Source: Amaranthus tricolor (taxonomy: Eukaryota > Streptophyta > Magnoliopsida > Caryophyllales > Amaranthaceae). Taken from it: a stretch of 64,000 bases of DNA. The stretch spans positions 2,803,960 to 2,867,959 of the forward strand of contig NC_080049.1 in the NCBI RefSeq assembly GCF_026212465.1, read 5' to 3'. The notes under the pieces are model-generated. The model made no database searches and was not told where the DNA came from. It saw nothing but the letters and a program-made list of their open reading frames with translations. This document shows, piece after piece, positions 21,313 through 49,114 of the stretch. Position numbers and translations under genes: made by a program. Position 1 is the first letter of the stretch. The number at the start of each line of letters is the position of its first letter.

Positions 21313-23707
<2,395 letters not shown>

Positions 23708-25066: not shown

Positions 25067-25723
25067 ATGGCTACTTTATCCACACTCTGTACCCTGATCT
25101 ACTCCTCTTCATCTTCCTCCTTCAAACCATCTTCTTCTCCTCTCCTTCCCACCTACCTTCCCTTCCTCCCCACCCGAAATCGACTTCTACCGCGAATCAC
25201 AGCCGTCGGCCCCGACGTTCTAGGCGACTTCGGGGCACGGGACCCATTCCCCGCCGAACTCGAATCCAATTTCGGCGAAAAAGTCGTCGGAAATATGAGC
25301 ACTGAACACAAAATCCTCATCCCTCATGCTCAAGCTTTAGCTCTTTCTCAACAAAATTGTGTACCCATTTCAGCTAATGATTCTCCATTATCTAAACATG
25401 ATGCTAAACAGCTTCTATTTAAGGTTGTAGGATGGAGATTAGTTGAAGAAGAAGATACTAAAAATGGAAATGTTGTGATGAAATTACAGTGTTTTTGGAA
25501 ATTAAAAGATGTTGATAATGGAAAAGAATTAATTAAGAGGATTAATGATGTTGCTGAAAAAGCTGGGCATTCTCCTGTTTTGAATCAAGATGGTAATCAT
25601 GTTACTGCTGTCTTATGGACTGAGATTATTGGTGGGTTAAGTCTTAATGATTTTATTGTTGCTGCTAAGATTGATAAAATTAAAATCTCTGATCTTCTTC
25701 CAAGAAAAAGAGTTTGGGCTTAG
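25067..25723 (+). CDS. RAF2: Plastid Rubisco assembly factor 2 / pterin-4-alpha-carbinolamine dehydratase-like protein
   Basis: A single open frame encodes 218 residues. Residues 1-45 form a Ser- and Pro-rich, basic chloroplast transit peptide. Residues 53-60 (GDFGARDP) and STEHKILIP (78-86) mark the plant RAF2 subgroup. Residues 107-205 are the pterin carbinolamine dehydratase (DCoH) fold, including GWRLVEEED, AEKAGHSP and IGGLSLNDFIVAAKID; it ends LPRKRVWA. RAF2 helps assemble Rubisco in the chloroplast stroma, and the same Arabidopsis gene has been described as SDIRIP1. In true dehydratases the active site is a His-His-Pro triplet. Here it reads Gly-His-Ser-Pro (167-170), so one His is kept and the other replaced, which argues for a structural role. 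The first 250 bases are distinctly GC-rich against an AT-rich second half. Confidence 0.85.
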   Translation: MATLSTLCTLIYSSSSSSFKPSSSPLLPTYLPFLPTRNRLLPRITAVGPDVLGDFGARDPFPAELESNFGEKVVGNMSTEHKILIPHAQALALSQQNCVPISANDSPLSKHDAKQLLFKVVGWRLVEEEDTKNGNVVMKLQCFWKLKDVDNGKELIKRINDVAEKAGHSPVLNQDGNHVTAVLWTEIIGGLSLNDFIVAAKIDKIKISDLLPRKRVWA

Positions 25724-28184: not shown

Positions 28185-29525
28185 GTTCCACCCAATTCTA
28201 CGCAGCCTAATTTCAGCTTCACCGTTGCCATGGCTGCCGCCATACCTTTTATTTTTTTCATTCTTCATTATTTCTATTTCCATCATTTTCTTGTTTTCCA
28301 AATCCATGCTTGCCCATGTTGTTGGAACTTTATAGTATTCACCATATCACATAAATAAGCACAGGCGAAAATAATCACCAAAATAATTCGCTAAGCTTCG
28401 ACAATAATAGTTAATTTCAAAAAAAAATGCTTGTGTTGAAATTTGATACATGTTTACTCTTTTGGCTATAACTTTTAATAGAAAAATTACATAATTACAA
28501 TGTTTGCGGCATTAGAACCTAGACTTCAAGATCTTTTCAATGATATATTATATGCCCAATTCCGATAACCTAGCAAGAAGTGACGATCGTTTAAAATTTG
28601 TTTGTGCGGAAAATTGATACATGTTTAATCTTTTGGGCATAACTTTTTATAAAAAAATCTTATTAATGCATGGTTTACTTCACTAGAAACTAGACTTCAA
28701 GAGCTTTCCAACGAGATATTATATGTTCAATTCCAACAATCGAGCGAGAAATGACGACCATTTAAAGTTTGCAGAGATTTTTAACTCCAATCGCGCGAGC
28801 GGACTGCGGTATGGTCGCGTAAAACGCACGACCAAACCGCGGTATGGTTGTGTAAAATGCAGGACCAGACCACGGTGGAGTCTCGCGTTTTACGCGATCA
28901 TACTGTAGTTCGGTCGCACGTTTACGAGACCATACCGCGGTCCGGTTGAGCGTGACTGGATGTTAGAAATTACTACAAACTTTGAATAGTCGTCATTTCT
29001 CGCTTGATTGTCGTAATCGGGCATATAATATGTTTTTGGAAAGCTCTTGAAGTCTAGTTTCTAATGCCTAAAATCATGCATTAATAGGATTTTTGTATAA
29101 AAAGTTATTCCTAAAAGATTGAAAATTTCAGCACAAGCAAACTTTAAACGATCATCATTTCTCGCTCGGTTTTCGGAATTGGGTTTATAATATCATTGGA
29201 AAGCTCTTAAATTCTAGGTTCTAATGCCGCAAACATTGTAGTAATGTGATGTTCCTATCAAAAGTTTTAGCTAAAAGAGTGATCATGTATCAAATTTCAA
29301 CACAAAACGCACGATTATGTTTATTTTCCTATTTTAAAAAATTGTTTTCTTTTTTAAAATTAATAATTTTTATTTTAATTTAATTATTAGTAATAAATTT
29401 AGTTTAGTAATATTAATGGTTGATTTTATAATTAAAAAAAATTTAAGGGTATTTTAGTTATTTCATTAAAAAAAGGAGTGGTGATACAATAAAAGGCTGG
29501 CGAACTTTAAGGATTGGAATTCAGA
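28185..29525. mobile_element. Non-autonomous foldback / Mutator-like element with GC-rich core
   Basis: The outer ends resemble those of the large element at 57905-61990: CCCAATTCTA...CTTCACC at the left and GGTGATACAATAAAAGGCTGGCGAA...TTGG at the right. Inside, two related 190-bp modules (about 28425-28610 and 28611-28775) are followed by the GC-rich core (28780-28960) and then by both modules in inverted order (28975-29130, 29131-29315). This makes a hierarchical palindrome of about 900 bases. There is no coding sequence. Confidence 0.6.
28780..28960. repeat. GC-rich minirepeat, about 33-bp unit, built on ACCGCGGTATGGTCGCGTAA
   Basis: Units such as ACCGCGGTATGGTTGTGTAA repeat about five times, first in one direction and then inverted (TACGCGATCATACTGTAGT-like). 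The CCGCGG and TCGCG content is striking in such AT-rich DNA. Related units occur at 58165-58320. Confidence 0.7.
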
Positions 29526-29880: not shown

Positions 29881-30526
29881 TATTTAAATGGGATACACAC
29901 AAAAATATGGTACACAAACACAAAGATTTATATTTTTAAGTGAAAGAACCCTTTCACCCTTATATTATTATCAAGGACAAAATAATACAAGACTTCGTTT
30001 GAGAACTATCAAACACTCCAACAATTAATGAGAACACACATTAATCTCACATAAGCTCTCTATCAAATTTGGGCATGCACAAATGAGCAACCTTACACCC
30101 TTGTTTGAAAAAACCCTAAACTCATAAATTTAGGAAACAAAATATTACTAGGACACTTTAGGAAAGTACATAATTAAGAAAAACATAATTCCAAATCATA
30201 TTTGATCTCCAATTTCTTAATTATTATCAAATAATAATAGGAAATCTATCAAATAAAATAATATTGGGTTTACTTCTTAGCAAATAATATGGCTATAAAC
30301 TCAAATTAATGAGTCACCGAAAGCTCCATCTTGATAAACTTGTCCCAACGATGTCTTCCATTGAACGCAAATCTCTCTACCATGCTCATAAACGTAAAGA
30401 TTTCTCTCGTTCCTTTGATCAATCATAATGTAACACCCCGGCCCCTCGGACCGCTGGTGACTACTCATGGAGACTGTAGACTGGCCCCACAAACCAACAC
30501 AAGTCTTTCCAGCGCACTTTGGCCTC

Positions 30527-30645
30527 ACTCGTGCGCATCCGGGAACACTTTCCAGGAGGTCACCCATCCTAAGATTGCTCCCCACCAAGCACGCTTAACT
30601 GTGGAGTTCTTAGCAAATGGGCTTCCTAGAAAAGAAGATGCACCT
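30527..30645 (-). repeat. 5S rRNA-derived segment in left Cassandra LTR
   Basis: The minus strand carries GAACTCCACAGTTAAGCGTG, CTTAGGATGGGTGACCTCCT and the flanking stem, close to plant 5S rRNA including the internal pol III promoter region. It is not a 5S gene: both ends of the 120-base molecule are altered and it lies inside an LTR. Confidence 0.8.
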
Positions 30646-30972
30646 TGTTGATATGAGTAGTCTATCAATCCTTTTTCAAGCTAAATCTGGGGTATTACAC
30701 TCACCCCCACTTAAGAATACAACGTCCTCGTTGGACCGTAACTTCAGAATCTTTTCCCCCGCTAGGTGCACTAAACACTATCAGCCACGGTTGCAGGGTT
30801 GCTCTGATACCATTTGTTACCCTGCAACCGTGGCTGATAGTGTTTAGTGCACCTAGCGGGGGAAAAGATTCTGAAGTTACGGTCCAACGAGGACGTTGTA
30901 TTCTTAAGTGGGGGTGAGTGTAATACCCCAGATTTAGCTTGAAAAAGGATTGATAGACTACTCATATCAATA

Positions 30973-31092
30973 AGGTGCATCTTCTTTTCTAGGGATCCCA
31001 TTTGCTAAGAACTCCACAGTTAAGCGTGCTTGGTGGGGAGCAATCTTAGGATGGGTGACCTCCTGGAAAGTGTTCCCGGATGCGCACGAGTG
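30973..31092 (+). repeat. 5S rRNA-derived segment in right Cassandra LTR
   Basis: It is the same 5S-like block as 30527-30645 in the opposite direction, with AGGGATCCCATTTGC where the other arm has AGGAAGCCCATTTGC; the right arm is closer to real 5S here. It is probably the source of pol III-type internal promoter motifs in the element. Confidence 0.8.
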
Positions 31093-31940
31093 AGGCCAAA
31101 GTATGCTGGAAAGACTTGTGTTGGTTTGTGGGGCCAGTCTACAGTCTCCATGAGTAGTCACCAGCGGTCCGAGGGGCCGGGGTGTTACACATAACCACCG
31201 AGAGCCCACTAGTAATCATAATCCACCCATCCATCATTCGTATATGATACCCCAATTTCTCCACCCTCCCCAAAGAGATTAAATTTTTTTCTTAAATTAG
31301 GTTCATACTTTAGCTGACCTAAAGTTATTACTTGGCCGTTGTGAACCATAATCTCCACCTCTCCGACCCCTGGAACTTGCATTTCTTCTCCATTGGGTAA
31401 AGTCACCTTTTTATCTTCACATCTCTTTAAAGATGAAAAACTTTCCCTCCTCCCACATAGGGGATTCAACCCAAATCAAAAATCCATTCATCCTTCACTG
31501 ACTCTTGTATAAGAAGAAGGTCATCACCTTCATCATGCGCTGTAGCAACAATTTCCTTCTCTTTAGCCTACTTTTACTCTTTTATGTCCTCATTTGCTTT
31601 TGGACAAGTATATTAAATATGGCCAATTTTCTTGTAATAGTAACATTTTACCCTCAGAATTATTTTTGCCATCTTTCTTCTTGTTGTTGTATGCCTTAGC
31701 CACCATTAAGCCCGTATGATATGTATCACTCGATTCTTGCATCATGAGTCTTTCAGCTTCTTGAAGACAAGCGATGGTTGCATCCAAAGCTAGCTTCGTT
31801 TTTCCCACCAATAAAGAAGTAAACACAATACTAATACTTCTTTGGTAAAGACACCATAAAGAGAATAGTTTTGTCTTCATCCTTGAGCTTTTCAATACTT
31901 TGTGCTACATTTTAGTTGTCGCCCAAAATATTTTTCTCGT

Positions 31941-32022
31941 AGCATGCGATCTGCATAGATGATCATCCAATTGATCAACAATTGGGTGAGACTTTGAGGG
32001 AAAATTGAAAGATCGAGTTAAG
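31941..32022 (-). pseudogene. DUF241 gene relic (N-terminal fragment)
   Basis: The minus strand reads LTRSFNFPSKSHPIVDQLDDHLCRS, matching the start of the nearby DUF241 genes (HTRSNSFPSKSHPIADQLDQQLCRL). It has no start codon and joins directly to copia gag sequence at about 31940. This shows that the DUF241 cluster once extended at least 2 kb further left, or that a fragment was carried there. Confidence 0.7.
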
Positions 32023-33887: not shown

Positions 33888-34682
33888 CTAGTTGCTGACA
33901 ACATTCAGAAGTGTTGCTCTGGTCTTAACTAGATTCCTAAACAAACATTCAAGACCTTCGTCGATTTCTTGAATTTCTGACTCTAATTTAACCAACTGTG
34001 ACATATCGACAATCGATTTCTTTTTTTGGGAGATCATCAACTCTAGTGTAGCATCAACTGCATCAAATTCACTGCTAGATGCTGATGTTTCCTTCTCAAC
34101 TCTTTGGCCGTGGACTAATTTTGAGAACGACCAGCTGCTTTTTTGTGATCCGCCAATGTAAGACAACAAGGAAATGAAGGTATCAGATGTAATTGCTTGC
34201 ACATCTTTCAACATCCCATCAATGGGATTTGTGTCATTAGTTTTTTCAACTTGTTTCATTTCTTTCAAGCACTTCTTGATCATCTTCTTCACTGTTTTTC
34301 GGGTTTTTAAGTATTCATTGACTTCATTTGTAATGTTAAGTTCACCACTGGATCTTCTCCTTAAGGCTGATTGTATTTCTTGGATCCGTTCCTTTGATTG
34401 AGCCAAGACATCCCGAGATGTAGCACTAATGTCTAGGAGCCTTAGAGATCCATCCAATACCTTCTCAACCCAACTGTCATATGGAGTGTTCTGTTTAACA
34501 GGCAGTTGAAGAAACTCATCAACACACATGTATAAATCTTTAAGGCCCGAAAGTTTGTTGGTCAGTGATGAAGTAGAGGCGGTTTCAGATGATCTTAATC
34601 TGCACAATTTCTGATCGAGTTGATCAGCAATTGGGTGAGATTTTGAAGGAAAACTGTTTGATCGAGTGTGGTAAGACGCCAT
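33888..34682 (-). CDS. DUF241 domain protein, cluster copy 1
   Basis: An intronless frame of 264 residues. It has the DUF241 (PF03087) hallmarks: a basic, Ser-rich start (HTRSNSFPSKSHPIADQLDQ), LCRLRSSE (about 28-35), GLKDLYMCVDEFLQLP (about 46-61), WVEKVLDGSLRLLDI, ALRRRSSGELN and a helix-rich C terminus ending LVKTRATLLNVVSN. The family is plant-specific and has no firmly assigned biochemical role; the predicted long helices suggest a coiled scaffold. MASYHTRS is the conserved start in all copies. The last ~75 residues match copy 6 exactly (ASSSEFDAVDATLEL...), although the 3' flank is of a different type. Confidence 0.9.
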   Translation of the reverse strand: MASYHTRSNSFPSKSHPIADQLDQKLCRLRSSETASTSSLTNKLSGLKDLYMCVDEFLQLPVKQNTPYDSWVEKVLDGSLRLLDISATSRDVLAQSKERIQEIQSALRRRSSGELNITNEVNEYLKTRKTVKKMIKKCLKEMKQVEKTNDTNPIDGMLKDVQAITSDTFISLLSYIGGSQKSSWSFSKLVHGQRVEKETSASSSEFDAVDATLELMISQKKKSIVDMSQLVKLESEIQEIDEGLECLFRNLVKTRATLLNVVSN

Positions 34683-36841
34683 TTTAAAGTTTTTTAAGGT
34701 TTTCTAAAGGCAAAGAATGAAGAGATATACAAATTTTGGTTTGATGCTTTGTTCATCCTTCTCTACCTCATATATATATGAAGTTAGGCAAGACAAAAGG
34801 AATCTTTGTAAGTGGGGAATAATATGATGTCAGTTTATTATATGAAGGTATTTCTTGTGCTTGTTCAACTTTGTCTCTTCTTAACCAATTTACCAACTAA
34901 TACAATTATTATATATATTAGTTTAATTTAAAATAAATCCTTTCTGATGCTGTTTTTCTGTGTTTTTTAACTCCCAACTTAACAGCTAATGTGTTTTCTG
35001 CATCCCCCTATCCCAATGAAAATGAACATGTGGTGATTTTTATTGTTAGTGTCAAATATTGCTGCCAAATACTGTACCATGATCCAAAAAATGTGCAATA
35101 CACGAGTGACACTGTCGAGTTTTGTTCTCTTGTATGAGTTTTAGCAGCCTTGCAGGAATACTACTACTCAGTACATGGAAATTGATGTACATGAGTGGTT
35201 AAAGTTATATGAAAGGGAGTGCTTATTATCCCAGAAAACAGGCAAGATGTCGCATGCATGGACTTTACTTCTGAGCGTTCAGACAAATTTTCCGGAGACC
35301 CTACAAACTGATAAAATCCCTACGGACTAAACAGTTTCAGAGTCATGGTGAATGCAATTTCAGTATTTATACAAATTTTCTGGAGGCCCTACAAACCGAT
35401 AAAAGGAAGATAGACTAGTAGTTTTAGTTTGGATCGATGATTGTATTTTTATCCTGAATGTCAAATGATGGGTGAATTGTTATGGTCCTCTGACTAAGTC
35501 AGCAGATGATGATGCAGACCTGCTGCTGCTCATGTGCATGCTGCTGCTAAAGTGTCACCTGTTATCAATTATGTGGTAAATAATTGGATAGGGCTGGGAC
35601 TACCGATGTTTCTTAACAAAATGGCCAATTGAACAATCATGCTACACAACTAAATATGAATGCTCACCAATCCCTGAATTTGCGGCAGATCAAGGACCAC
35701 TCTAACTGCAACATTTTGTAAAAAATCCGCGCCTTCGAACTGAATCCGAGCCTTCAAACTGACTTGGGTGTGTTCTGACAAAGTTTGTGTGAAGCAGGAA
35801 AATTTTCTCATGAAGAGCCTATCTCGTTGAAGGACTGTTACAAATGAAGGATAGAGTAGTGCAAATGTGCAATGCAAAATGATCCTATCTAAATGATACA
35901 CATGAATGGAAACGACAGAATATGATATTGAAAGAAAAGAACGTGTAGCCAATTGTATATTTAAGTCTTCTACCTACATAATTTCAGACAATTTGTTGTA
36001 ACTGTTAGTAAATTAATAAAGGAATCTGATTTGAATTGAATATAAAATTCAATACGCTCTCACATGATCCAATAAACTAGGCAAAGGCAAGGATAGAAGA
36101 CCTAATATCATATATTTTTTAGATTTTATAACATGTTTTTGCTTTTTTTTTTTTATAGCAACTTCAGTTCAAATTTTGTTAACGCCCAACTTGTAGCTAA
36201 TGTGTTTGTTAATTAAGCACCTCTTATTTATGTGATGTTTGCTACCAAGGATAAAGATTGCATACATTTGATCCCCTCAAACCCCGTTCTAAGTGGGAGT
36301 CACTTAATTGCATTGGGGTAATGTGAAGTATTGTACTTTGTAGCAAGATCCAAAAAACACGCTATACTTATCTCTTGAATTATGTTAAGCAAGAATGCTC
36401 ATTTTCCAACGATGCACATGAGTTGTATCGAGATTCAAAAATTTGAATATTTAAATCCTATTTATGTAGGCAATTGCTTGATTAGAGGAGACCATCTATA
36501 TTCACACATTCATGGACTGTGCTTGTACAAAAATTTCCAGAGTTCCTACAGACATATGGAATCATGACAGCCAACAACGCGTTATATACTCATTGTAAGT
36601 AATTCCATGTTTAACCCATTTGCAGTAAATTTTTTGTTATGTAGTAAATATATCTTGATTATGCTTATTAAGAGGAAATATTAACTTTTATTTTTGTCTA
36701 GGAGAAATTTATCATATAAGATGGTATGATAATGAATTCATAGAAGAATAAATAATAACTCAATTGAGCAAAACTGTATTTTCATTTGTGTATCATTATC
36801 TTCACATCAAAATTTTGTACATGAGTAATTGTCTGTTTTTT
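34683..36841. other. Intergenic spacer between DUF241 copies 1 and 2
   Basis: Next to copy 1 lies its promoter: a TATATATATGAAG box on the + strand at about 34770 (about 90 bases before the ATG, minus strand). About 34940-35040 is a module repeated before every copy ('tgctgtttttctgtgtttt...aacagctaatgtg'). Further modules recur at 35500-35900 and 36380-36580. A SINE tail lies at 36262-36325. No intact gene is seen. Confidence 0.55.
36262..36325 (+). mobile_element. SINE 3' fragment
   Basis: The stretch 'gatcccctcaaaccccgttctaagtgggag...cattggggtaatg' resembles the 3' body of tRNA-derived plant SINEs. Similar pieces occur at 51270-51335 and 54980-55045. The A and B boxes are not preserved here. 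Confidence 0.45.
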
Positions 36842-37636
36842 CTAATTACTAAGGACATTGAGAAGGGTTCCTCTGGTTTTAACCAGATGCCTAGATAAGC
36901 ATTCCAAGACTAGATCAATTTCTTGAACATCAGATTCTAGTTTAACCAACTGTGACATATCGACAATCGTTTTCTTTTTCTGGGAGATCATCAACTCTAG
37001 AGTAGCATCAACGCGATCAAAATCACTAATAGATGCTGCTGTTTCCTTCTCAACTCTTTGGCTGCGGACTATTTTTGAGAACGACCAGCTGCTTTTCTGT
37101 GATCCGCCAAGGTAAGACAACAATGAAATGAAGGTATCAGATGTAATTGCTTGCACATCTTTCAACATCCCATCAATGGAATTTTCCTCATTAGTTTTTT
37201 CGACTTGTTTCATTTCTTTCAAGCACTTCTTGATCATCTTCTTGACTGTTTTTCGGGTTTTCAAGTATTCAGCGACTTCATTTGTAATGTTAAGTTCACC
37301 ACTAGATCTTCTCCTTAGGGCTGATTGTATTTCTTGGATCCGTTCCTTTGATTGAGCCAAGACATCCCGAGATGTAGCACAAATGTCTAAAAGCCTTAGA
37401 GATCCATCCAATACCTTCTCGACCCATCTGTCATATAGAGTCTTCTGATGAACGGGCAGTTGAAGAAACTCGTCAAAACACATGTATAAATCTTTAAGTC
37501 CCAAAAGTTTGTAGGTCAGCAATGATGTGGAGGCAGTTTCAGATGATCGTAATCTGCACAATTGCTGATCGAGTTGATCAGCAATTGGGTGGGATTTCGA
37601 AGGAAAACTGTTTGATCGAGTGTGGTAAGATGCCAT
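36842..37636 (-). CDS. DUF241 domain protein, cluster copy 2
   Basis: It has 264 residues, intronless and intact. It is the most divergent member: STSLLTYKLLGLKDLYMCFDE near residue 40, LPVHQKTLYDRWVEK, DFDRVDATLEL, and a C terminus VLECLSRHLVKTRGTLLNVLSN. The DUF241 core motifs are all kept. Its 3' flank ('gtctgttttttctaattactaa') groups with copies 5 and 6, unlike copies 1, 3 and 4. A TATATATATGAAG box lies about 90 bases upstream of the ATG. Confidence 0.9.
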   Translation of the reverse strand: MASYHTRSNSFPSKSHPIADQLDQQLCRLRSSETASTSLLTYKLLGLKDLYMCFDEFLQLPVHQKTLYDRWVEKVLDGSLRLLDICATSRDVLAQSKERIQEIQSALRRRSSGELNITNEVAEYLKTRKTVKKMIKKCLKEMKQVEKTNEENSIDGMLKDVQAITSDTFISLLSYLGGSQKSSWSFSKIVRSQRVEKETAASISDFDRVDATLELMISQKKKTIVDMSQLVKLESDVQEIDLVLECLSRHLVKTRGTLLNVLSN

Positions 37637-39085
37637 TTTTAGGTGTTCTTTAGTTTGCTAAAGACAAAGAAATATGTATACAAGTTCTGGTTTGATGGCT
37701 TGTTCATCTTTCTCCGCCTCATTTATATATATGAAGTTAGGCAAGACAGAAGGAATCTTTTCTAAGTGGGGAATATTTTGATTTTAGTTTTATATATCAA
37801 GGTATTTCTAATGGTTGTTCAAAATTGTCTCTTCATAGCCAATTTTCCAATTAATATAATGATTATATATTTGATTTAGTTTAAATTATGTATTATAACA
37901 GATTCTGTGTGATGCTGTTTTTCTGTGTTTTTGAATTCTCAACATAACAGCTAATGTGGTTTGTGTATTCTCTTATTCCAATGAAAGTGATAATGTGGTG
38001 AACTTTATTGTTACTGTCATATTCTGCTGCAAATTAATGTATCATGATCCAAAAAATGGGGTACACACAACCGGCATTGTCGAGTTCTTTTCTTTAGTAT
38101 GGCATATTGCCGGAGTACTACTACGTGGTACTTGGGAAACGATGCACACGAGTGGTGGAAGTTATTTTAAATGGAGAACATATTTATATGTTCCAACTCC
38201 TAAAAGACGTGTTTTTAGCTCGAAACAGAACTGGTGCAGCTCGAGCCTATGCTTCTACTGTTGTTTCGTCACAAAATGGTAAGCCTAACACAACTAAATA
38301 TCAATGCTTCACCAATGCTTGGGTTCAGTGCAGTTCAAATGGCCACTATATTTACATCAGTTAGTAGAAATCCCAGCTTTCTAACTGGTTGCGCGCAGGT
38401 GAGTTTGATTCTTCTTGTTCTTTGATTGTGAGATATAAAGCATGTTACGGTTGATTATCAATTTGGCAAAAAATTTTTGTTAGGTGCGACAATGAGACTG
38501 AATTCTATTGTATGCAAGTTTTGTTAGAAGTGATAACGAAACATCTAAATTTTCATATTCAATATATCCCGCTCATAGAAGCTATGATTAGGATATGGAG
38601 AGGTAGAAGACGGCAGACCATAGAACCCTGTTGATCAAAATCCCAAGTAAGCTCTACCCTGTGTACTCAAAGATTTGCCAACGATGCACACGATTCGCAT
38701 TCAAATTATTCTTTTTGCCACTCAAAAGCTTACTACAAGATCCTACAATGTAGCTAAATGCTTGGTTGTAGGAGACCACATAATATTCAGGCATACATGC
38801 ACTTCATAATATATTCTTTAAATCTTAAGGAAATATGTTTATATATTAGTTATTTCATTTCTTAAGGAATTTTTTTTTTCTAATTTCTTAGTGAAAAATT
38901 AGAAAACAGGTAAATTCTCAAAAGACAAAATAGAAATTTACTTTACTTTGTTGGTTTTTCAGTTAACATTACTGAATGAGAAGCAATGAACTTGAACAAC
39001 ACAAATTAGAGAAAAATAATGAATATTCATTTCTATAGATTTTTCATTTACATATCAAAAATCTGCACTGTAGTGACTTTCTGAT
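37637..39085. other. Intergenic spacer between DUF241 copies 2 and 3
   Basis: It contains the conserved upstream module (about 37905-38000) and, at 38100-38370, a coding-like stretch on the + strand (VSSQNGKPN...) that recurs in decayed form in other spacers. The 'tgtaggagaccacat' module is at 38740-38800. No intact gene is seen. Confidence 0.5.
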
Positions 39086-39880
39086 CTAATTACTAACAAC
39101 ATTCAGAAGTGTTGCTCTGGTCTTAACTAGATTCCTAAACAAACATTCAAGACCTTTGTCGATTTCTTGAATTTCTGACTCTAATTTAACCAACTGTGAC
39201 ATATCGACAATCGATTTCTTTTTTTGGGAGATCATCAACTCAAGTGTAGCATCAACGGCATCAAATTCACTGATAGATGCTGATGTTTCCTTCTCAACTC
39301 TTTGGCCGCGGACTAATTTTGAGAACGACCAGCTGCTTTTTTGTGATCCGCCAATGTAAGACAACAATGAAATGAAGGTATCAGCTGTAATTGCTTGCAC
39401 ATCAATCAACATCCCATCAATGGGATTTGCCTCATTAGTTTTTTCAACTTGTTTCATTTCTTTCAAGCACTTCTTGATCATCTTCTTCACTGTTTTTCGG
39501 GTTTTCAAGTATTCAGCAACTTCATTTGTAATGTTAAGTTCACCACTGGATCTTCTCCTTAAGGCTGATTGTATTTCTTGGATCCGTTCCTTTGACTGAG
39601 CGAAGACATCCCGAGATGTAGCACAAATTTCTAGGAGGCTTAGAGATCCATCCAATACCTTCTCAACCCAACTGTCATATGGAGTGTTCTGTTTAACGGG
39701 CAGTTGAAGAAACTCATCAACACACATGTATAAATCTTTAAGGCCTGTAAGTTTATCGGTCAGTGATGAAGTGGAGGCGGTTTCAGATGACCTTAGTCTG
39801 CACAATTGCTGATCGAGTTCATCAGCAATTGGGTGGGATTTTGAAGGAAAACTGTTTGATCGAGTGTGGTAAGACGCCAT
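39086..39880 (-). CDS. DUF241 domain protein, cluster copy 3
   Basis: It has 264 residues from the conserved MASYHTRS start at 39880. The frame stays open upstream to 39973, but that extra part (RRMNKASNQNLYIYKS...) covers the 5' leader, has no counterpart in the other copies and is not taken as coding. The DUF241 motifs are complete: SKSHPIADELDQQLCRLRSSE, GLKDLYMCVDEFLQLPVKQ, ALRRRSSGELN, and an end LVKTRATLLNVVSN. The 3' flank is of the 'gtgactttctgatcta' type shared with copies 1 and 4. Confidence 0.9.
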   Translation of the reverse strand: MASYHTRSNSFPSKSHPIADELDQQLCRLRSSETASTSSLTDKLTGLKDLYMCVDEFLQLPVKQNTPYDSWVEKVLDGSLSLLEICATSRDVFAQSKERIQEIQSALRRRSSGELNITNEVAEYLKTRKTVKKMIKKCLKEMKQVEKTNEANPIDGMLIDVQAITADTFISLLSYIGGSQKSSWSFSKLVRGQRVEKETSASISEFDAVDATLELMISQKKKSIVDMSQLVKLESEIQEIDKGLECLFRNLVKTRATLLNVVSN

Positions 39881-41378
39881 TTTTAAAATTTTTTGAATTT
39901 TTTTAAAGGCAAAGAATGATTTATATATATACAAGTTTTGGTTTGATGCCTTGTTCATCCTTCTCTGCCTCATTTATATATATGAAGTTAGGAAAGACAG
40001 AAGGAATCTTTCGTAAGTGGGGAATAATATGATGTCAGTTTTTTATATCAAGGTATATCTTGTGCTTGCTCAACATTGTCTCTTCTTAACCAATTTACCA
40101 ACTAATACAATTATTATATATTTTATATTAGCTTAATTTAAAATAAATCCTTTCTGATGCTGTTTTTCTGTGTTTTGGAACTCCCAACTTAACAGCTAAT
40201 GTGTTTTCTGCATCCCCTCATCCCAATGAAAATGATCATGTGGTGAATTGTTGGTTTGGTTTCAGGTTCTGCAACTAATTACTATATCATGGCCCAAAAA
40301 ATGCGCTATGCACAAGTGGCATTCTCGAATTCTTTTTGTCTAATAGGACATATTGCAGGAGTACTGCTACTCGGTACTGCGTAAATCATGCACACAAGTG
40401 GTGAAACTTAAAAAAGGAAAGGGATTCAAGAACTTCATTGTGCCTATTACTGAGACTGTTGCTTCTATTGATTCTGCTACTAATACAACTACAGTTGACT
40501 CTAAGTTTTCTGCTGCTACTTCTTATACTAGGTGAGTCGAGGCATGCAAGAAGAACTTCATCAACAATATTGAATGGTTTTGTGGCGCTTCATCTGGTGA
40601 ATGTCCACAATGCGTTCTTGTATGATGATCGTAGTTTGTCTTGTTCTATTTCTCCTTATTGTCAAGGACCAACTCAACCAAAAGCTTAAGCTGATGGTTG
40701 AGCCCTAGGATATGTTATATACTCTAACACTTATGTAGTGAAAATAACATTTGGCTTCACAATTCGGAACCATGAACCGAAAAAGGTGCTATACACGAGT
40801 AAAAAACTGGATTCTTATTTGTTGAATGAAGTACACAATGATTTGCCAAAGATGCACACGATTTGAATTCAAATTCTGATTATTTTTCCCTCTTAAGTGC
40901 TTCCTACAAGAGTTTTGAAGGGAATATAATCTAAAAATTTGATTACAACTTACAAGATCCTAAAATGTAGGTAAGTGCTTAACTGTAGGAGACCACATTA
41001 CATTCAACAGCTTCTGCTAACATATGGAATCTTAAGGAAGATGTATTTATATATTACTACACATGGTTTCACATGGAAAGATATTAAAAGTTGTATTTTC
41101 TTAATTATTTCTTAATTATTTTTTAGTGAATTATATTAAAAGTTGTATTTTCTTAATTATTTCTTGATTATTTCTTAGTCAAATAGATGAAAAGTTGTAT
41201 TCTGTTAATTTTCTCTTTTCTTAAAGAAGATATATTTTTTCTTATTTCTTAGTAGAAAATGATAAAACAGGTAAATTCTGAAAAGATTAATACTCAAGAT
41301 AAGTCAAAGGATTAATATTCATTTCTATAGAATTATCATTTACATATCAAAAATTTGTAGTATAGTTGACTTTCTGAT
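39881..41378. other. Intergenic spacer between DUF241 copies 3 and 4
   Basis: It holds the common upstream module (about 40155-40245), a decayed coding-like module at about 40350-40690 (TETVASIDSATNTTTVDS...), and a stretch at 41090-41200 where 'gttgtattttcttaattatttctt' is repeated three times. Confidence 0.5.
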
Positions 41379-42174
41379 CTAGCTACTAACAATATTCAGT
41401 AGAGTTGCTCTAGTCTTAACCAGATTCCTAAACAAACATTCCAGAACTTGATCAATTTCTTGAATTTCCGACTCTAATTTAACCAACTGTGACATATCGA
41501 CAATTGATTTCTTTTTCTGGGAGATCATCAACTCTAGTATAGCATCAACTGCATCGAATTCACTTATTGATGCTGTTGTTTCCTTCTCAGCTCTTTGGCC
41601 GCGGACTAATTTTGAGAATGACCAGTTGCTTTTCTGTGTTCCGCCAATGTAAGACAACAATGAATTCAAGGTATCAGCTGTAATTGCTTGCACATCTTTC
41701 AACATGCCATTAATGGAATTTGCCTCGTTAGTTTTTTTCAGCTTGTTTCATTTCTTTCAAGCACTTCTTGATCATCTTCTTGACTGTTTTTCGGGTTTTC
41801 AAGTATTCGGTGACTTCATTTGTAATGTTAAGTTCACCACTGCACCTTCTCCTTAAGGCTGATTGTATGTCCTGGATCCGTTCCTTTGACTGTGCCAAGA
41901 CATCCCGTGATGTAGCACAAATGTCTAGAAGCCTTAGAGATCCATCCAATACCTTCTCAACCCAACTGTCATATAGCGTGTTCTGATTAACTGGTAGTTG
42001 AAGAAAGTCATCAACACACCTGTATATATCTTTAAGGCCTGTAAGTTTGTCGGTCAGTGATGAAGTGGAGGCGGTTTCAGATGACCTTAATCTGCACAAT
42101 TGCTGATCGAGTTCATCAACAATTGGGTGGGATTTTGAAGGAAAACTGTTTGATCGTGTGTGGTAAGATGCCAT
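41379..42174 (-). pseudogene. DUF241 gene, cluster copy 4, frameshifted
   Basis: The gene is 796 bases, one more than the 795 of its sisters. The minus-strand frame runs MASYHTRS...KEMKQAEKN and stops at about 41728. The rest (MLKDVQAITADTLNSLLSYIGG... to the end LLNIVSS) is open in another frame. The cause is an A-run of seven where the other copies have six (T7 at 41732-41738 on the + strand). Other features are intact, including the promoter TATA region, so the break is probably recent. A slippage polymorphism or sequencing error cannot be excluded. Confidence 0.85.
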
Positions 42175-44890
42175 TTTAAAGTTTTTCAAAAAGTTTTCTA
42201 AAGGCAAAGAATGATATATAAATATACAAGCTTTGGTTTGATGCCTTGTTCATCCTTTTCTGCCCCATTTATATATATGAAGTTAGGAAAGACAGAAGGA
42301 ATCTTTTGTAAGTGGGGAATAATATGATGTCAGTTTATTATATCAAGGTATATCTTGTGCTTGCTCAAAATTGTCTCTTCTTAACCAATTAACCAACTAA
42401 TACAATTATTTCATATATTAGTTTAATTTAAAAAAGGATACTTTCTGATGCTGTTTTTCTGTGTTTTGGAACTCCCAACTTAACAGCTAATGTGTATTCT
42501 ACATCCTCTTATCCCAATGAAAATGATCATGTGGTGAACTTAATTGTTTACTGTTATATTCTGTACCTAAGTATTGTATCATGATCCAAATAATGTGCTA
42601 CACACAAGTCGCATTGTCGAGTTCTTTTCTCTATGGAGGAGTACTTATACTTGGTACTTGGCAATTGAAGCACACGAGCGATGAGAGCTTTAGAAAATCG
42701 AGAATTTTTTTAAAAGGATAGTGCTTGACTGTAGCCAACAACGTAATGATCACGCATTCATGGACTTTATTTGAACGGGTTCAGACAGATTGATAAGTTC
42801 AAAATTTCAGCAAGAAATTCGAGCCTATTAGAACTCAGATGGGAAGATAGACTTGTCATTTGTGTATTTAGCTCGACGCATACTTGGTGCTTCATGTGTC
42901 ACCTGCTGACTGCTGTGTATTATGTGGGAAATGATTTGGATGTGGCTGGGACTTGTGTTGTTTCTTCACAAAATGGCAAGCCTAACATAACCCTGGGTTT
43001 TTTGCAGATCAAAGGGCCTGTTGAATTACAACCTCTAATAAGATTCCTAGCTTTTAACTGATTGCATGTGAGTTTGATTCTTCTACGACTTGGGACTTAT
43101 AAAGCGTGTTATGGTTGATCGTCAATTTGGTCAAAAAAATATGAGGAGTGATAACTAGACTGAATTCTATCGTTTGCGATTGTTTTGTTTTTCAATCTTC
43201 ATGTGTTGGTTCCCACAACAAAATCATCAAATTGGAACTTGGGAGAAAATACAAACAGATTTTTAGTGTTGTTCGTGCTCTTAGATTCCAAGCAAAATGT
43301 GTTTGACAACTGTTTATTTGATCAATTTAACACGTTCTTTTGAGCATATGATAAGTCCTCTGTCTTATGATTATATTCATACTTTGATATTGAGCACATA
43401 GTGAATAAGCAAAAGGAGACAAATTTGATAGTAGGAGTCGGAAGTGTTTGACGACAAACAGATGCTGCTCGTGCCCATGCAGCTGCTATTGTGTCATCTG
43501 TTATGGTTTTCTGTCTATATGTTACTGCTTCACCAATTCCTCTAAATCTGCTTCTATGTATTCTGCTAACTCCAAGCTGTTAACTACTCTGCTGCTACTA
43601 CTTCCCATACTAAGTGGTACTACTACTACTAACCCTATGATGGGTCGAGTTTGCAGGAACAATTTTCGTCAACAAAGTTGAAAGGTATTGTGCCGCATAC
43701 AGTAGTAACGACGAGTTTTCTCCAGCTTCAAATGCCTCGTACATTTCTCATCTACAGCTCATTTTGTTAGTTCTGAAAAAATTTGTGTGGAACTGGAAAA
43801 TTTTCTCGCGAAGAGTCTACGTCCTCGAATGACTGTTACAAATGAAGGATGGAGTAGTGCGAATGTGCAATGCAAAAAGAAAAGTAGAAGATTTTGCTCT
43901 TCCTTCCAAGTCTTTTTATATATGTAAGTAAAGAACACATAAGAAACCTTAAAATAAGTAACATAGTTGCATTTTTTTTTTATCAACCTTTGATGGGTTT
44001 TGTTTAATACTGTCTCTTCCTACAAAATGACCCTCAAATTATACAACAAAAAAATGTCAAATCTTGTTCCCTGCCTATTGATCAAGATCCTAAGTAAACG
44101 ATACACACGAGTGGAAATGGCAGTTTTCTAGTCCATCAAGCTGTATATATAAGCCTTCTACTTACATAACTTCAGACAGTTGTTAATAAATAACAAAAGA
44201 ATCCGATTTGAACTGAATATAAAACTGAATTCTCTCTTATACGTTCCAATGAACTAGGCAAGTGCCAGACTGTAGGAGACTTGAGAGGTTATTTTTAGCA
44301 GACAGTAGGAATATTTGGAGGGTGTAACAGATGTATCTTTCAGATTTTAGTGCAATACTTTAATGTAGCTCACACGGACGATCAGTTGTTTATATAACTA
44401 TTTTTTGCTGTATCTCTTAAATCATCTTAAGTATAATTTTCCAACGATGCACTCGAGTTGTAACAAACTTTCGAATATTTAACTGAGTAATTGCCTGCAT
44501 GATCCTACAATCTAGGAAAATGCTTGACTGTAGAAGACCATCTAATATCAACACGTTCATGCGCTTTGCTTCAACACGAATTTTTCAGAGTTCCTGCAGA
44601 CAAACAGAATCTTGACAGCCAACAATGCGTTATAGAGTCATTGTAAGTAATTCCATGTTTAACCCATTTTCTGTAACCTTTATTTTTCTTATTTTCTTTT
44701 ATATTTTCTAATATATTTTTTCTCGAGTATTTTAACTGCTGAGACATAATTATATGGCAAATATTTTTTACTGTATGAATTCATAGAAGAATAAACATGA
44801 AGGCAAATTATGGAAAAAATGTGTTTTCATTTGTGTATAACTAATATTGACATTTTCTATACATAAGTAAGCTTTATATACTGTTTTTTT
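42175..44890. other. Intergenic spacer between DUF241 copies 4 and 5
   Basis: It contains the upstream module (about 42445-42540). The segment 42560-44890 closely matches the next spacer (46065-48320), offset by about 3.4-3.5 kb, showing tandem duplication of gene plus spacer. Coding-like modules at 42770-43060 and 43440-43760 are broken. The 'gcttgactgta' module recurs at 42722, 44270 and 44520. Confidence 0.55.
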
Positions 44891-45685
44891 CTAATTACTA
44901 AAAACATTAAGAAGTGTTGCTCTGGTCTTAACCAGATTTCTAAACAAACATTGAAGAACTTCGTCGATTTCTTGAAGTTCCGACTCTAATTTAACTAATT
45001 TTGACCTATCAACAATTGATTTCTTTTTTTGGGAGATGACCATTTCTAGTGTAGCATCAACGGCATCAAATTCACTGATTGATGCTGCGGTTTCCTTCTC
45101 AACTCTTTGGCCGCGGACTAATTTTGAGAACGACCAGTTGCTTTTTTGTGATCCGCCAATGTAAGACAACAATGATTCAAAGGTCTCAACTGTAGTTTCT
45201 TGCACATCTTTCAGCATGCCATCAACGGGATTTTCCTCGTTAATTTTGTCAACTTGTTTCATTTCTTTTAAGCACTTCTTGATCATCTTCTTGACTGTTT
45301 TTCGGGTTTTCAAGTATTCGGTGACTTCATTTGTAATGTTAAGTTCACCACTGGACCTTCTCCTTAAGGCTGATTGTATGTCCTGGATCCGTTCCTTTGA
45401 CTGGGCCAAGACATCCCGAGATGTAGCACAAATATCTAGAAGCCTTAAAGATCCATCCAATACCTTCTCGACCCATCTGTCATATAGGGTGTTCTGATTA
45501 ATGGGCAGTTGAAGAAACTCATCAACACACATGTATAAATCTTTAAGGCCTCTAAGTTTATCGGTCAGTGATGAAGTGGAGGCGGTTTCAGATGACCTTA
45601 ATCTGCACAGTTGCTGATCGAGTTGATCAGCAATTGGGTGGGATTTTGAAGGAAAACTGTTTGATCGAATGTGGTAAGACGCCAT
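44891..45685 (-). CDS. DUF241 domain protein, cluster copy 5
   Basis: It has 264 residues, intronless and intact. It differs from the others at several places: HIRSNSFPS at the start, LQLPINQNTLYDRW, KQVDKINEENPVDG, VQETTVETFESLL and MVISQKKKSIVDRSKLVKLESELQEIDEVLQCL. The DUF241 signature regions are unchanged. The duplicated unit downstream leads into copy 6 with nearly the same spacer. Confidence 0.9.
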   Translation of the reverse strand: MASYHIRSNSFPSKSHPIADQLDQQLCRLRSSETASTSSLTDKLRGLKDLYMCVDEFLQLPINQNTLYDRWVEKVLDGSLRLLDICATSRDVLAQSKERIQDIQSALRRRSSGELNITNEVTEYLKTRKTVKKMIKKCLKEMKQVDKINEENPVDGMLKDVQETTVETFESLLSYIGGSQKSNWSFSKLVRGQRVEKETAASISEFDAVDATLEMVISQKKKSIVDRSKLVKLESELQEIDEVLQCLFRNLVKTRATLLNVFSN

Positions 45686-48319
45686 TTTAAATTTTTTCGA
45701 AGTTTGTTAAAGGCAAAGAATGATAAATATACAAGCTTTGGTTTGATGCCTTGTTCATCCTTCTCTGCCCCATTTATATATGAAATTAGGAAAGACAGAA
45801 GGAATCTTTTCTAAGTGGGATTATAACATGATTTTAGTTTATTATATGAAGGTATTTCTTGTGCTTGTTCAACATTGTCTCTTCTTAGCCAATTTACCAA
45901 CTAATACAATTATAATATATATTAGTTTATTTGAAATAGATTCTTTATGATGCTGTTTTTCTGTGTTTTTAAACTTCCAACTTAACAGCTAATGTGTTTT
46001 CTGCATCCCCGTATCCCAATGAAAATGATCATGTGGTGAGCTTAATTGTTTACTGTCATATTCTGCTCCTAAGTATTGTATCATGATCCAAATAATGCGC
46101 TATACACAAGTGGCATTGTCGAGTTCTTTTCTTTATGGAGGAGTACTTATACTTGGTACTTTGCAAATGAAGCACACAAGCGATGAAAGCTTTATGAAAT
46201 CAAGAATTTATTTAAAAGGATAGTGCTTGACTGTAGCCAACAATGTAATGATCGCGCATTCATGGACTTTATTTCAACGGGTTCAGACAGATTGATAAGT
46301 CCAAAATTTCAGCAAGACATTCGAGCCTATCAGAACTCAGATGGGAAGATAGACTTAGCATATGTGTATTTAGCTTGTCGCATACTTGGTGCTGCATGTG
46401 TCACCTGGTGACTGCTGTGTATTATGTGGGAAATCATTTGGATGTGGCTGGGACTTGTGTTGTTTCTTCGCAAAATGGGAAGCCTAACATAACCCTGGCT
46501 TAAGTGCAGATCAAAGGGCCTGTCGAATTACAACCTCTAATAAGATTCGTAGACTTCTAACTGATCGCCTGTGAGTTTGATTCTTCTTCAATTGGGAGCT
46601 ATAAAGCATGTTATGGTTGACCGTCAATTTGGTGAAAAGAATGTTAGGAGTGATAGCTAGACTGAATTCTATAGGACGCGATTTTTCTTTGGGCAATGCC
46701 ATTGTTTTTCAATCTTCATGTGGTTGTATCTCACAACAAAATGATCAAGTTGGGACTTTGGAGAAAACACACAGATTTTTAATGCTGTCCATGCTCTAAA
46801 ATTCCAAGCAAATTTGTGGGCTGTTCCTACATCCTTTTTATTTATGCTTTTATTGAGTCTGCTATTATGTTTGATGCTTCTATTGACTCTGATTCTTCTT
46901 TACACATGCCATACCGATAGCGCGTTCATGGGCTGTTCAGACAAAGTTTCTGGACCCCCTACAAACAAATAGAATCCCTGCAGGCAACAGTTTCAGCCTT
47001 CAGGGTCATTGTGAAAGCAAGCTTCTGAATATTTACATATTGTTCAGTCCAAACACTCCGGTATATATCACATTCTAGACCAAATTTAATCAGAAGGGAA
47101 GATATACTTGTGTATTTAGGTGGTCGGTTGAGCGCTATGGTTATTTGTCTAAATCAGAAAACGACATCATAACAGCAGCTGCTCGTGCCCATGTTGCTGA
47201 GGTTGTGTCATCTGCTATGGTTTCTGTCTATATATTACTGCTTCACCAATTCTTCTTAATCTGCTTCTATGTCTGCTAACTCCTAGCTGTTAACTCTACT
47301 TTTGCTGCCACTACTTCCCATACAAAGTGGTATCATGACGCATACAGTTGTAACGAAGAGTCCATCTCCTGCTCACTATGTTAGTTCTTGTGACAAACTT
47401 TCTCAAATTACAAAATGGCGCATTTTGTCTCTTCTTACAGAATGACCCTCAAATTAAATACTAATACAAAAAATGTCATATCTTGTTTCCTGCCTGATGA
47501 TCAAGATCCTAAGTAAACGATATACACGAGTGGAAATGGAAGTTTTCCAGTCCATCAAGCTGTATATATAAGCCTTCTACTTACATAACTTCAGACAGTT
47601 GTTAATAAAACAACAAAAGAATCCGATTTGAACTGACTATAAAACTGAATTCGCTCTTACCCGATCCAATGAATAAGGCAGTGCCAGACTGTAGGAGAAT
47701 TGGGAGGTTATTTCTACCAGACAGGAGGAATATTGGGAGGCTGTAACAGATATAATTTTTCAGATTTTAGTTCAATACTTTAATGTAGCTCACACGGACG
47801 ATCAGTTGTTTATATAACTATTGTTTGATGTATTTCTTTAATGATTTTATGTAAGCGTGCCCAATAATTTCCAATGAAATTTAGAATATTTAACTGAGAA
47901 TTTGCCTGTATGATCCTACAATGTAGGCATATGCTTGACTGTAGGAGACCATCTAATATCAACGCGTTCATGCACTTTGCCTCTACCAAAATATACGGAG
48001 TTCCTATAGACAAACGGAATCATGACAGCCAACAATGCGTTAGAGTCAATGTAAGTAATTCCATTCCATGTTTAACCCATTTTCTGTAACCTTTTATTTT
48101 TGTTTAGGAGAAATTTCTTATTATCTTTTATATTTTTCTGATATATTTTCTCTTTAGTATTTTTACTGCTGAGGCATAATTATATGGCATATATTTTCTA
48201 CTGTATGAATTCATAGAAGAATAAACAGGAATGCAAATTATAGAAAAATGTGTTTTCATTTGTGTATAACTAATATTCACATTTTCTATACATAAGTAAG
48301 CTTTATATACTGTTTTTTT
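45686..48319. other. Intergenic spacer between DUF241 copies 5 and 6
   Basis: A near copy of the preceding spacer. A 62-codon + frame at 46223-46411 (RAFMDFISTGSDRLISPKFQQDIRAYQNSDGK...) is the longest surviving piece of the decayed module; its counterpart at 42717-42905 has stops. I do not recognise it. Confidence 0.5.
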
Positions 48320-49114
48320 CTAATTACTAACAACATTCAGAAGTGTTGCTCTGGTCTTAACTAGATTCCTAAACAAACATTCAAGACCTTCGTCGATTTC
48401 TTGAATTTCTGACTCTAATTTAACCAACTGTGACATATCGACAATCGATTTCTTTTTTTGGGAGATCATCAACTCTAGTGTAGCATCAACTGCATCAAAT
48501 TCACTGCTAGATGCTGATGTTTCCTTCTCAACTCTTTGGCCGCGGACTAATTTTGAGAATGACCAGCTGCTTTTTTGTGATCCGCCAATGTAAGACAACA
48601 ATGAAATGAAGGTATCAGCTGTAATTGCTTGCACATCTTTCAACATCCCATCAATGGGATTTGCCTCATTAGTTTTTTCAAGTTGTTTCATTTCTTTCAA
48701 GCACTTCTTGATCATCTTCTTCACTGTTTTTCGGGTTTTCAAGAATTCAGCAACTTCATTTGTAATGTTAAGTTCACCACTGGATCTTCTCCTTAGGGCT
48801 GATTGTATGTCCTGGATCCGTTCCTTTGACTGAGCCAAGACATCCCGAGATGTAGTACAAATGTCTAGAAGCCTTAGAGATCCATCCAATACCTTCTCAA
48901 CCCAACTGTCATATAAAGTGTTCTGATTAACGGGCAGTTGAAGAAACTCATCAACACACATGTATAAATCTTTAAGGCCTGTAAGTTTATCGGTCAGGGA
49001 TGAAGTGGAGGCGGTTTCAAATGACCTTAGTCTGCACAATTGCTGATCGAGTTCATCAGCAATGGGGTGGGATTTTGAAGGAAAACTATTTGATCGAGTG
49101 TGGTAAGACGCCAT
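48320..49114 (-). CDS. DUF241 domain protein, cluster copy 6
   Basis: It has 264 residues, intronless and intact. It has the complete DUF241 layout with SKSHPIADELDQQLCRLRSFE (Phe for Ser near residue 33), VAEFLKTRKTVKKMIKKCLKEMKQ and an end LVKTRATLLNVVSN. Its coding 3' part is almost identical at base level to copy 1, 14 kb away, while its 3' flank matches copy 5. That mosaic points to gene conversion. The usual TATATATATGAAG lies about 90 bases upstream. Confidence 0.9.
   Translation of the reverse strand: MASYHTRSNSFPSKSHPIADELDQQLCRLRSFETASTSSLTDKLTGLKDLYMCVDEFLQLPVNQNTLYDSWVEKVLDGSLRLLDICTTSRDVLAQSKERIQDIQSALRRRSSGELNITNEVAEFLKTRKTVKKMIKKCLKEMKQLEKTNEANPIDGMLKDVQAITADTFISLLSYIGGSQKSSWSFSKLVRGQRVEKETSASSSEFDAVDATLELMISQKKKSIVDMSQLVKLESEIQEIDEGLECLFRNLVKTRATLLNVVSN

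Follow-up and report, generated by a model that had tools for sequence, protein, structure and literature searches.

Within a 64,000-nucleotide stretch of Amaranthus tricolor DNA (the window), two Cassandra half-elements lie in opposite orientation under one 5-bp target-site duplication, their genuine U5 ends outermost, and the same layout is repeated at six other loci of the genome. In our judgement, the element probably arose as a Cassandra insertion from two incomplete cDNAs joined tail to tail. Two joined half-cDNAs can explain all seven inverted copies, and we prefer the joint insertion of two incomplete cDNAs to the fold-back of one molecule. In textbook integration, a single finished cDNA supplies both of the inserted ends. 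A class with U5 at both outer ends (U5/U5) that recurs under single target duplications would mean the joint insertion of two unfinished copies and would offer a simple source of palindromic genomic DNA.

Cassandra elements are TRIM retrotransposons, as Kalendar is said to have reported in 2008. The palindrome found here spans 761 bp (30429-31189), with arms of 371 nt that differ by five mismatches and no indels around a spacer of 19 nt; the initial annotation had described just such arms and spacer with CATAA on both sides (Table 1). All five mismatches fall within the LTRs, and the 100 internal nucleotides are without difference. Each LTR has a U3 end reading TGTAATACCCC and a U5 end reading GGGGTGTTACA, the latter outermost on both sides. 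The primer-binding site (PBS), TGGTATCAGAGC, is present once in the whole window and presumably matches initiator tRNA. The internal region of the right half begins at position 16, immediately inside the PBS. No ORF of at least 120 aa lies within the 761-bp element. Excerpts of Kalendar 2020 (PMC7215508) give this PBS for Cassandra, together with 5S box A and box C motifs in the LTR separated by 18 nt, and the excerpted text of PMC10853983 gives methionine as the complementary tRNA type. In the palindrome, each LTR has one set of these box motifs with the same 18-nt gap, so the earlier picture of two 5S-bearing LTRs with outward U5 ends, an inverted internal region and one PBS stands. Rfam recognizes the 5S character weakly (19.9 bits for the right LTR against a gathering score of 38), and no Rfam match reached its gathering score anywhere in the window. 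Rfam miRNA matches (MIR2863, 77 bits against a gathering score of 94) are expected of a long hairpin and were rejected as a sign of kinship.

Table 1. Positions of the palindromic element, its parts and its flanks in the window.
Feature	Position	Strand	Remarks
Flanks with broken copia-like reading frame, the element's insertion target	30301-31364	-	Frame continuous through joined empty site
Target-site duplication CATAA, left copy	30424-30428	.	
Left arm	30429-30799		371 nt
Left Cassandra LTR	30429-30699	-	271 nt; U5 end outward, TGTAACACCCC at outer edge
5S box A to box C, left LTR	30558-30600	-	Gap 18 nt
Complete internal region, left half	30700-30814	-	Purine-rich PPT 30700-30712, PBS 30801-30812
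Sole PBS of palindrome	30801-30812	-	TGGTATCAGAGC
ACA, probable last 3 bases of lost 5′ LTR	30815-30817	-	Same bases adjoin PBS spacer in normal copy L011
Single junction T	30818	.	Belongs to neither half
Right arm	30819-31189		371 nt
Right-half internal region, positions 16-115	30819-30918	+	Without PBS; PPT 30906-30918
Right Cassandra LTR	30919-31189	+	271 nt; U5 end outward, GGGGTGTTACA at outer edge
5S box A to box C, right LTR	31018-31060	+	Gap 18 nt; Rfam 5S 30975-31086, 19.9 bits
Target-site duplication CATAA, right copy	31190-31194	.	

The element thus resembles a Cassandra TRIM in its 5S boxes (18-nt gap, one pair per LTR), its PBS and its lack of coding sequence. It differs in its inverted LTRs, in the absence of an LTR upstream of the PBS and in having a partial internal region alongside a whole one. 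With no LTR ahead of the PBS, neither strand of the window gave a match to the linked query published for Cassandra (the boxes followed by the PBS; excerpts of PMC7215508). Judged by its sequence and its kin, the palindrome is Cassandra-derived, yet it is not an intact Cassandra since its LTRs are inverted; kin of normal layout make up 45 of 118 clusters in the same genome. Three bases (ACA) beside the PBS had been read as a remnant of the lost 5′ LTR. They do equal the three bases with which the LTR ends next to the PBS in L011, and three bases alone are weak evidence.

The flanks tell how the palindrome came to its site. They are identical over no more than 5 bp, a match with a chance of about 0.0018 given the local composition, and when joined at one CATAA they form one continuous copia-like reading frame. 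Database protein P0002 matches the joined frame at 43 of 56 residues with no gap across the insertion site, and protein P0001 has the identical 56 residues there. Pfam returned nothing for the two copia-like pieces tested; the label ‘copia-like’ reflects stretches that we take to be zinc-knuckle and protease-like. TG..CA ends, a 5-bp duplication and a clean empty site are all present, as in integrase-type insertion. The sequence supports a clean insertion, made in a single event with two U5 ends, and likewise the initial proposal of an unfinished reverse-transcription product joined near the PBS.

The CATAA duplication alone, however, proves less than that annotation held, because the LTR ends are near-identical inverted repeats and would allow later conversion of a normal copy. 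That is, a normal Cassandra at the CATAA site could have been made palindromic during chromosomal replication by two template switches, the second at the 11-bp LTR ends (TGTAATACCCC / TGTAACACCCC, one mismatch in 11), and both the duplication and the TG..CA ends would survive such a switch. We consider this history improbable. The U5-type C at base 30434 would confine the switch back to the last 5 bp. Such a symmetric process should yield U3/U3 copies equally often, against the 7 to 0 observed, and two family variants under one duplication in locus L009 (see below) are left unexplained. A simple flip of one LTR via the end repeats was rejected, as the seven copies hold duplicated partial content. 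Palindromes and repeats are also hard to assemble, so an assembly artefact has to be weighed, as do two independent opposite insertions with a deletion between them. We give this pair of explanations very little credence: each flank-U5 junction is local, six other loci have the same layout, and independent insertions would seldom end up with the same 5-bp flank (chance 0.0018), which is exact in six of the seven inverted loci and agrees at 4 of 5 bases in L123.

A search for other inverted-LTR Cassandra copies, suggested by the initial annotation, was carried out in the same 520-Mb assembly (45 contigs) and yielded six further loci (L009, L010, L051, L108, L122 and L123), all U5-outward on both sides and with differing junctions. 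Four DNA queries gave 1466-1494 first-look candidates each, in sets that overlap and favour complex loci. Among 40 scored candidates per query, inverted loci numbered three for the first (of 1493; the window, L009 and L010), five for the second (of 1486; the same three with L122 and L123), one for a 5′-half query (of 1466; L009) and three for the fourth (of 1494; L009, L122 and L123). In the 1486-, 1466- and 1494-candidate queries, most loci not otherwise fetched were judged by match rows alone; L122 and L123 were fetched on account of mixed match rows, and the 40 scored candidates of the 5′-half query held no U3/U3 copy by match rows only. A less structure-bound sample, the first 100 of 564 exact U5 ends, gave 84 loci, 35 of them with internal sequence; three of the 35 are U5/U5 (the window, L051 and L108), or two of 34 without the window.

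Altogether, 115 loci were classified (39, a further 73, L122, L123 and the window), which hold 118 clusters: 45 multi-part clusters with one U3 and one U5 end, seven U5/U5, 44 solo LTRs with both ends and 22 without one or both recognized ends. No U3-outward inverted copy occurs among them. The direction of 7 U5/U5 to 0 U3/U3 has a two-sided p of 0.016 (0.031 without the window copy). In addition, multi-part one-strand copies with only one recognized end kept U5 in 12 of 15 cases (p 0.035), as unfinished cDNA would predict. An exact pattern of the palindrome centre (spacer of at most 30 nt) matched this locus alone genome-wide, which gives no sign that this palindrome multiplies as a family. 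Viral contigs, and bacterial and archaeal contigs, each searched with one pattern, gave no match.

The inner junctions differ among the seven copies (Table 2), with overlaps of 7, 4, 2 and 1 nt, one blunt join and two 1-nt inserts; the overlaps are upper bounds, given imperfect alignments. The U5/U5 reading of L108 requires an internal deletion in the right LTR, and that of L123 an imperfect duplication. Inner ends lie beside the PBS in the window copy (internal position 16) and L051 (internal position 14); in L122 one falls exactly at the U3 start, and in L010 one falls 2 nt ahead of that start. In all, 4 of 14 inner ends are near landmarks of reverse transcription, with a chance of 0.0004-0.005 depending on the number of landmarks allowed, in a test made post hoc.

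Table 2. The seven inverted copies; extents are measured inward from each U5 end (int, internal region).
Copy	One half	Other half	Duplication	Inner junction
Window	LTR, int and 3 nt	LTR and 100 nt of int	CATAA	1-nt insert
L051	LTR, int and 70 nt	LTR and 102 nt of int	GTAAA	4-nt overlap
L009	LTR, int and 24 nt	Two units and 56-59 nt	TCTAT	2-nt overlap
L108	198 nt	LTR (internal deletion), int and 173-178 nt	TATGT	1-nt overlap
L010	LTR, int and 152-153 nt	LTR and 2 bases equal to last two before U3	ATAAC	1-nt insert
L122	Two units and 109-111 nt	LTR from base 1	CACAT	Blunt
L123	133 nt	LTR, int and 99 nt	ATTGG vs ACTGG	7-nt overlap

The joint insertion of two incomplete cDNAs would proceed as follows. 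Two minus-strand cDNAs would share one particle, with the U5 end finished on both and a complete 5′ LTR on neither. One would stop 3 nt past the PBS and the other just inside it, where the annealed tRNA would block the enzyme. The integrase of an autonomous partner could then take the two U5 ends as a pair and insert both together. The inner ends may have been joined before insertion, by mutual reverse-transcriptase priming or end joining, or afterwards by cellular end joining, and their joining would leave one extra T. The U5 end of the minus strand is the first made in reverse transcription, which would give the 7-to-0 direction. Similarly, inner ends at the PBS border and the U3 start (the 4 of 14) fit minus-strand stops and plus-strand starts, a pattern noticed before it was tested.

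Whether one template or two took part can be asked of the LTRs themselves. We used 31 family-variable LTR sites, at which a second letter occurs in at least 8%, with the partner LTRs of 39 normal copies as reference. This comparison replaced nearest-neighbour distances between the halves and other copies, which were dropped since private mutations bring unrelated copies closer than true partners. Normal partners differ on average at 10% of the variable sites, with a 95% point of 29%; for random pairs the figure is 25.6%. In L009, the left LTR differs from the right at 10 of 31 sites (32%), which against the 29% point is weak if taken alone, and at 5 of 7 transversion sites (71%), where the mean for normal partners is 7.4% and their 95% point 29%; between its two right LTRs, all 31 variable sites are alike. 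As its halves carry different family variants, L009 most likely unites two templates within a single duplication. Such clear evidence is limited to L009: L051 differs at 12 of 31 sites (an old copy), L122 at 7 of 31 (ambiguous), L108 at 4 of 19, L123 at 1 of 16 and L010 at 1 of 31.

The arms of the window copy, on the other hand, differ at 0 of 31 variable sites and have in common a letter that just 1 of 74 other LTRs carries, so they possibly come from one source or one molecule. Set against these 74, the five differences between the arms look like later mutation: four are departures of the right arm from the commonest letter (two to letters that none of the 74 has, the other two to letters present in 2 and in 1), and one is a departure of the left arm (to a letter present in 2). 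The clustering of these differences (P 0.003), once considered a sign of two sources, was dropped for the same reason.

It is in this context that the fold-back put forward in the initial annotation deserves attention. The 3′ end of one minus strand, 3 nt past the PBS, would snap back over 19 nt and prime on its own internal region, and the resulting hairpin would later be copied to a linear palindrome and inserted. Taken alone, the window copy fits this, with its small spacer, 100 identical internal nucleotides and arms in agreement at every variable site; a predicted RNA fold places a two-pair stem inside the spacer. Yet the bases at the spacer foot are unpaired (T opposite T), and a one-ended hairpin needs an extra step to become a two-ended duplex. 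Moreover, fold-back cannot make L009, with one unit against two and different variants, and it serves L010 and L122 poorly, as it gives no reason for the U3-start ends of their short halves. Overall, we regard fold-back as an unlikely origin for the palindrome.

If two unfinished cDNAs are indeed the source, the two ends of one insertion need not come from one cDNA, and the inner junctions of U5/U5 insertions would be a readable fossil record of where reverse transcription stalls (PBS, PPT or within the LTR). The broader claim, that plant integrase repeatedly brings together the completed U5 ends of two distinct, unfinished cDNAs and inserts both at one site, strikes us as evenly balanced. Such copies would presumably escape annotation that searches for LTR pairs in direct orientation.

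The insertion of an inverted TRIM as a unit has a precedent in Gao 2016, the one inverted TRIM report among the matches listed in our literature search. The excerpted text describes inverted maize SMART TRIM copies under one target duplication (CTTCA), with PCR and sequencing reported for TA-TRIM structures. By description rather than by maize sequence, the inverted TA-TRIM and the window element are alike in this arrangement. SMART is another family, however, and the figure legend is without end types, junctions or mechanism; the length of the inverted copy (559 bp against a typical 280 bp) suggests two whole elements. Angela complex insertions, attributed to template switching (Sabot and Schulman 2007, excerpts of PMC1950507), likewise hold several LTRs under one 5-bp duplication and are explained by two packaged RNAs, but their LTRs are direct. 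Tandem Cassandra arrays (in excerpts of PMC7215508, and L038, L040 and L071 here) also fuse units under one duplication; unlike in the window, the units of L038, L040 and L071 all run in one direction. No U5/U5 class or mechanism was found described in the literature covered, which includes excerpts of PMC10853983, PMC7215508 and PMC11899658, with Yin 2014, Kalendar 2008 and Maiwald 2021 outside that coverage.

The analysis gave no sign that the palindrome is active. From its sequence, it cannot template a normal round, because the PBS has no LTR upstream of it and both 5S promoters face outward. The same orientation corrects the earlier description of a head-to-head 5S pair (the promoters diverge) and leaves the suggested double-stranded RNA unsupported: promoters that face away from each other would give transcripts of the same sense, which would not pair. 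A 371-bp RNA hairpin, with a predicted fold of -778.7 kcal/mol, would need read-through of the whole palindrome.

The survey also brought up several other structures. L018 breaks at the LTR/PBS border, and L085 is one further multi-part one-strand copy with neither end recognized. L057, once labelled mixed, has opposite parts 764 bp apart and was not counted. Of loci L049-L121, 49 of 73 are without internal region. Most of these are solo LTRs, a good number of them flanked by a 5-bp duplication, and LTR-LTR recombination therefore seems common here. L045 (602-1149) holds two full LTRs in head-to-tail order, 6 nt apart, either adjacent insertions or a two-LTR junction. In L036 (~870-1000), the PBS of a Cassandra half stands next to an LTR-like end of another kind (GGGTTGTTACAG before TTGGTATCAGAGC), and the copy may be a chimera that formed at the PBS with a second family.

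Around the element, the window contains hAT-like transposase remains (22350-23045), a pterin-4-alpha-carbinolamine dehydratase ORF (25067-25723) and a cluster of direct and inverted repeats of 56-171 nt that are 75-88% alike (28422-29306). A tandem array of six BPS1-like ORFs lies on the minus strand (33888-49114; the one tested is Pfam BPS1), followed by a rhodanese-domain ORF (55285-55749). A stretch at 31949-32018, adjoining the copia-like remains, is 79% like the 5′ part of the BPS1-like ORFs.
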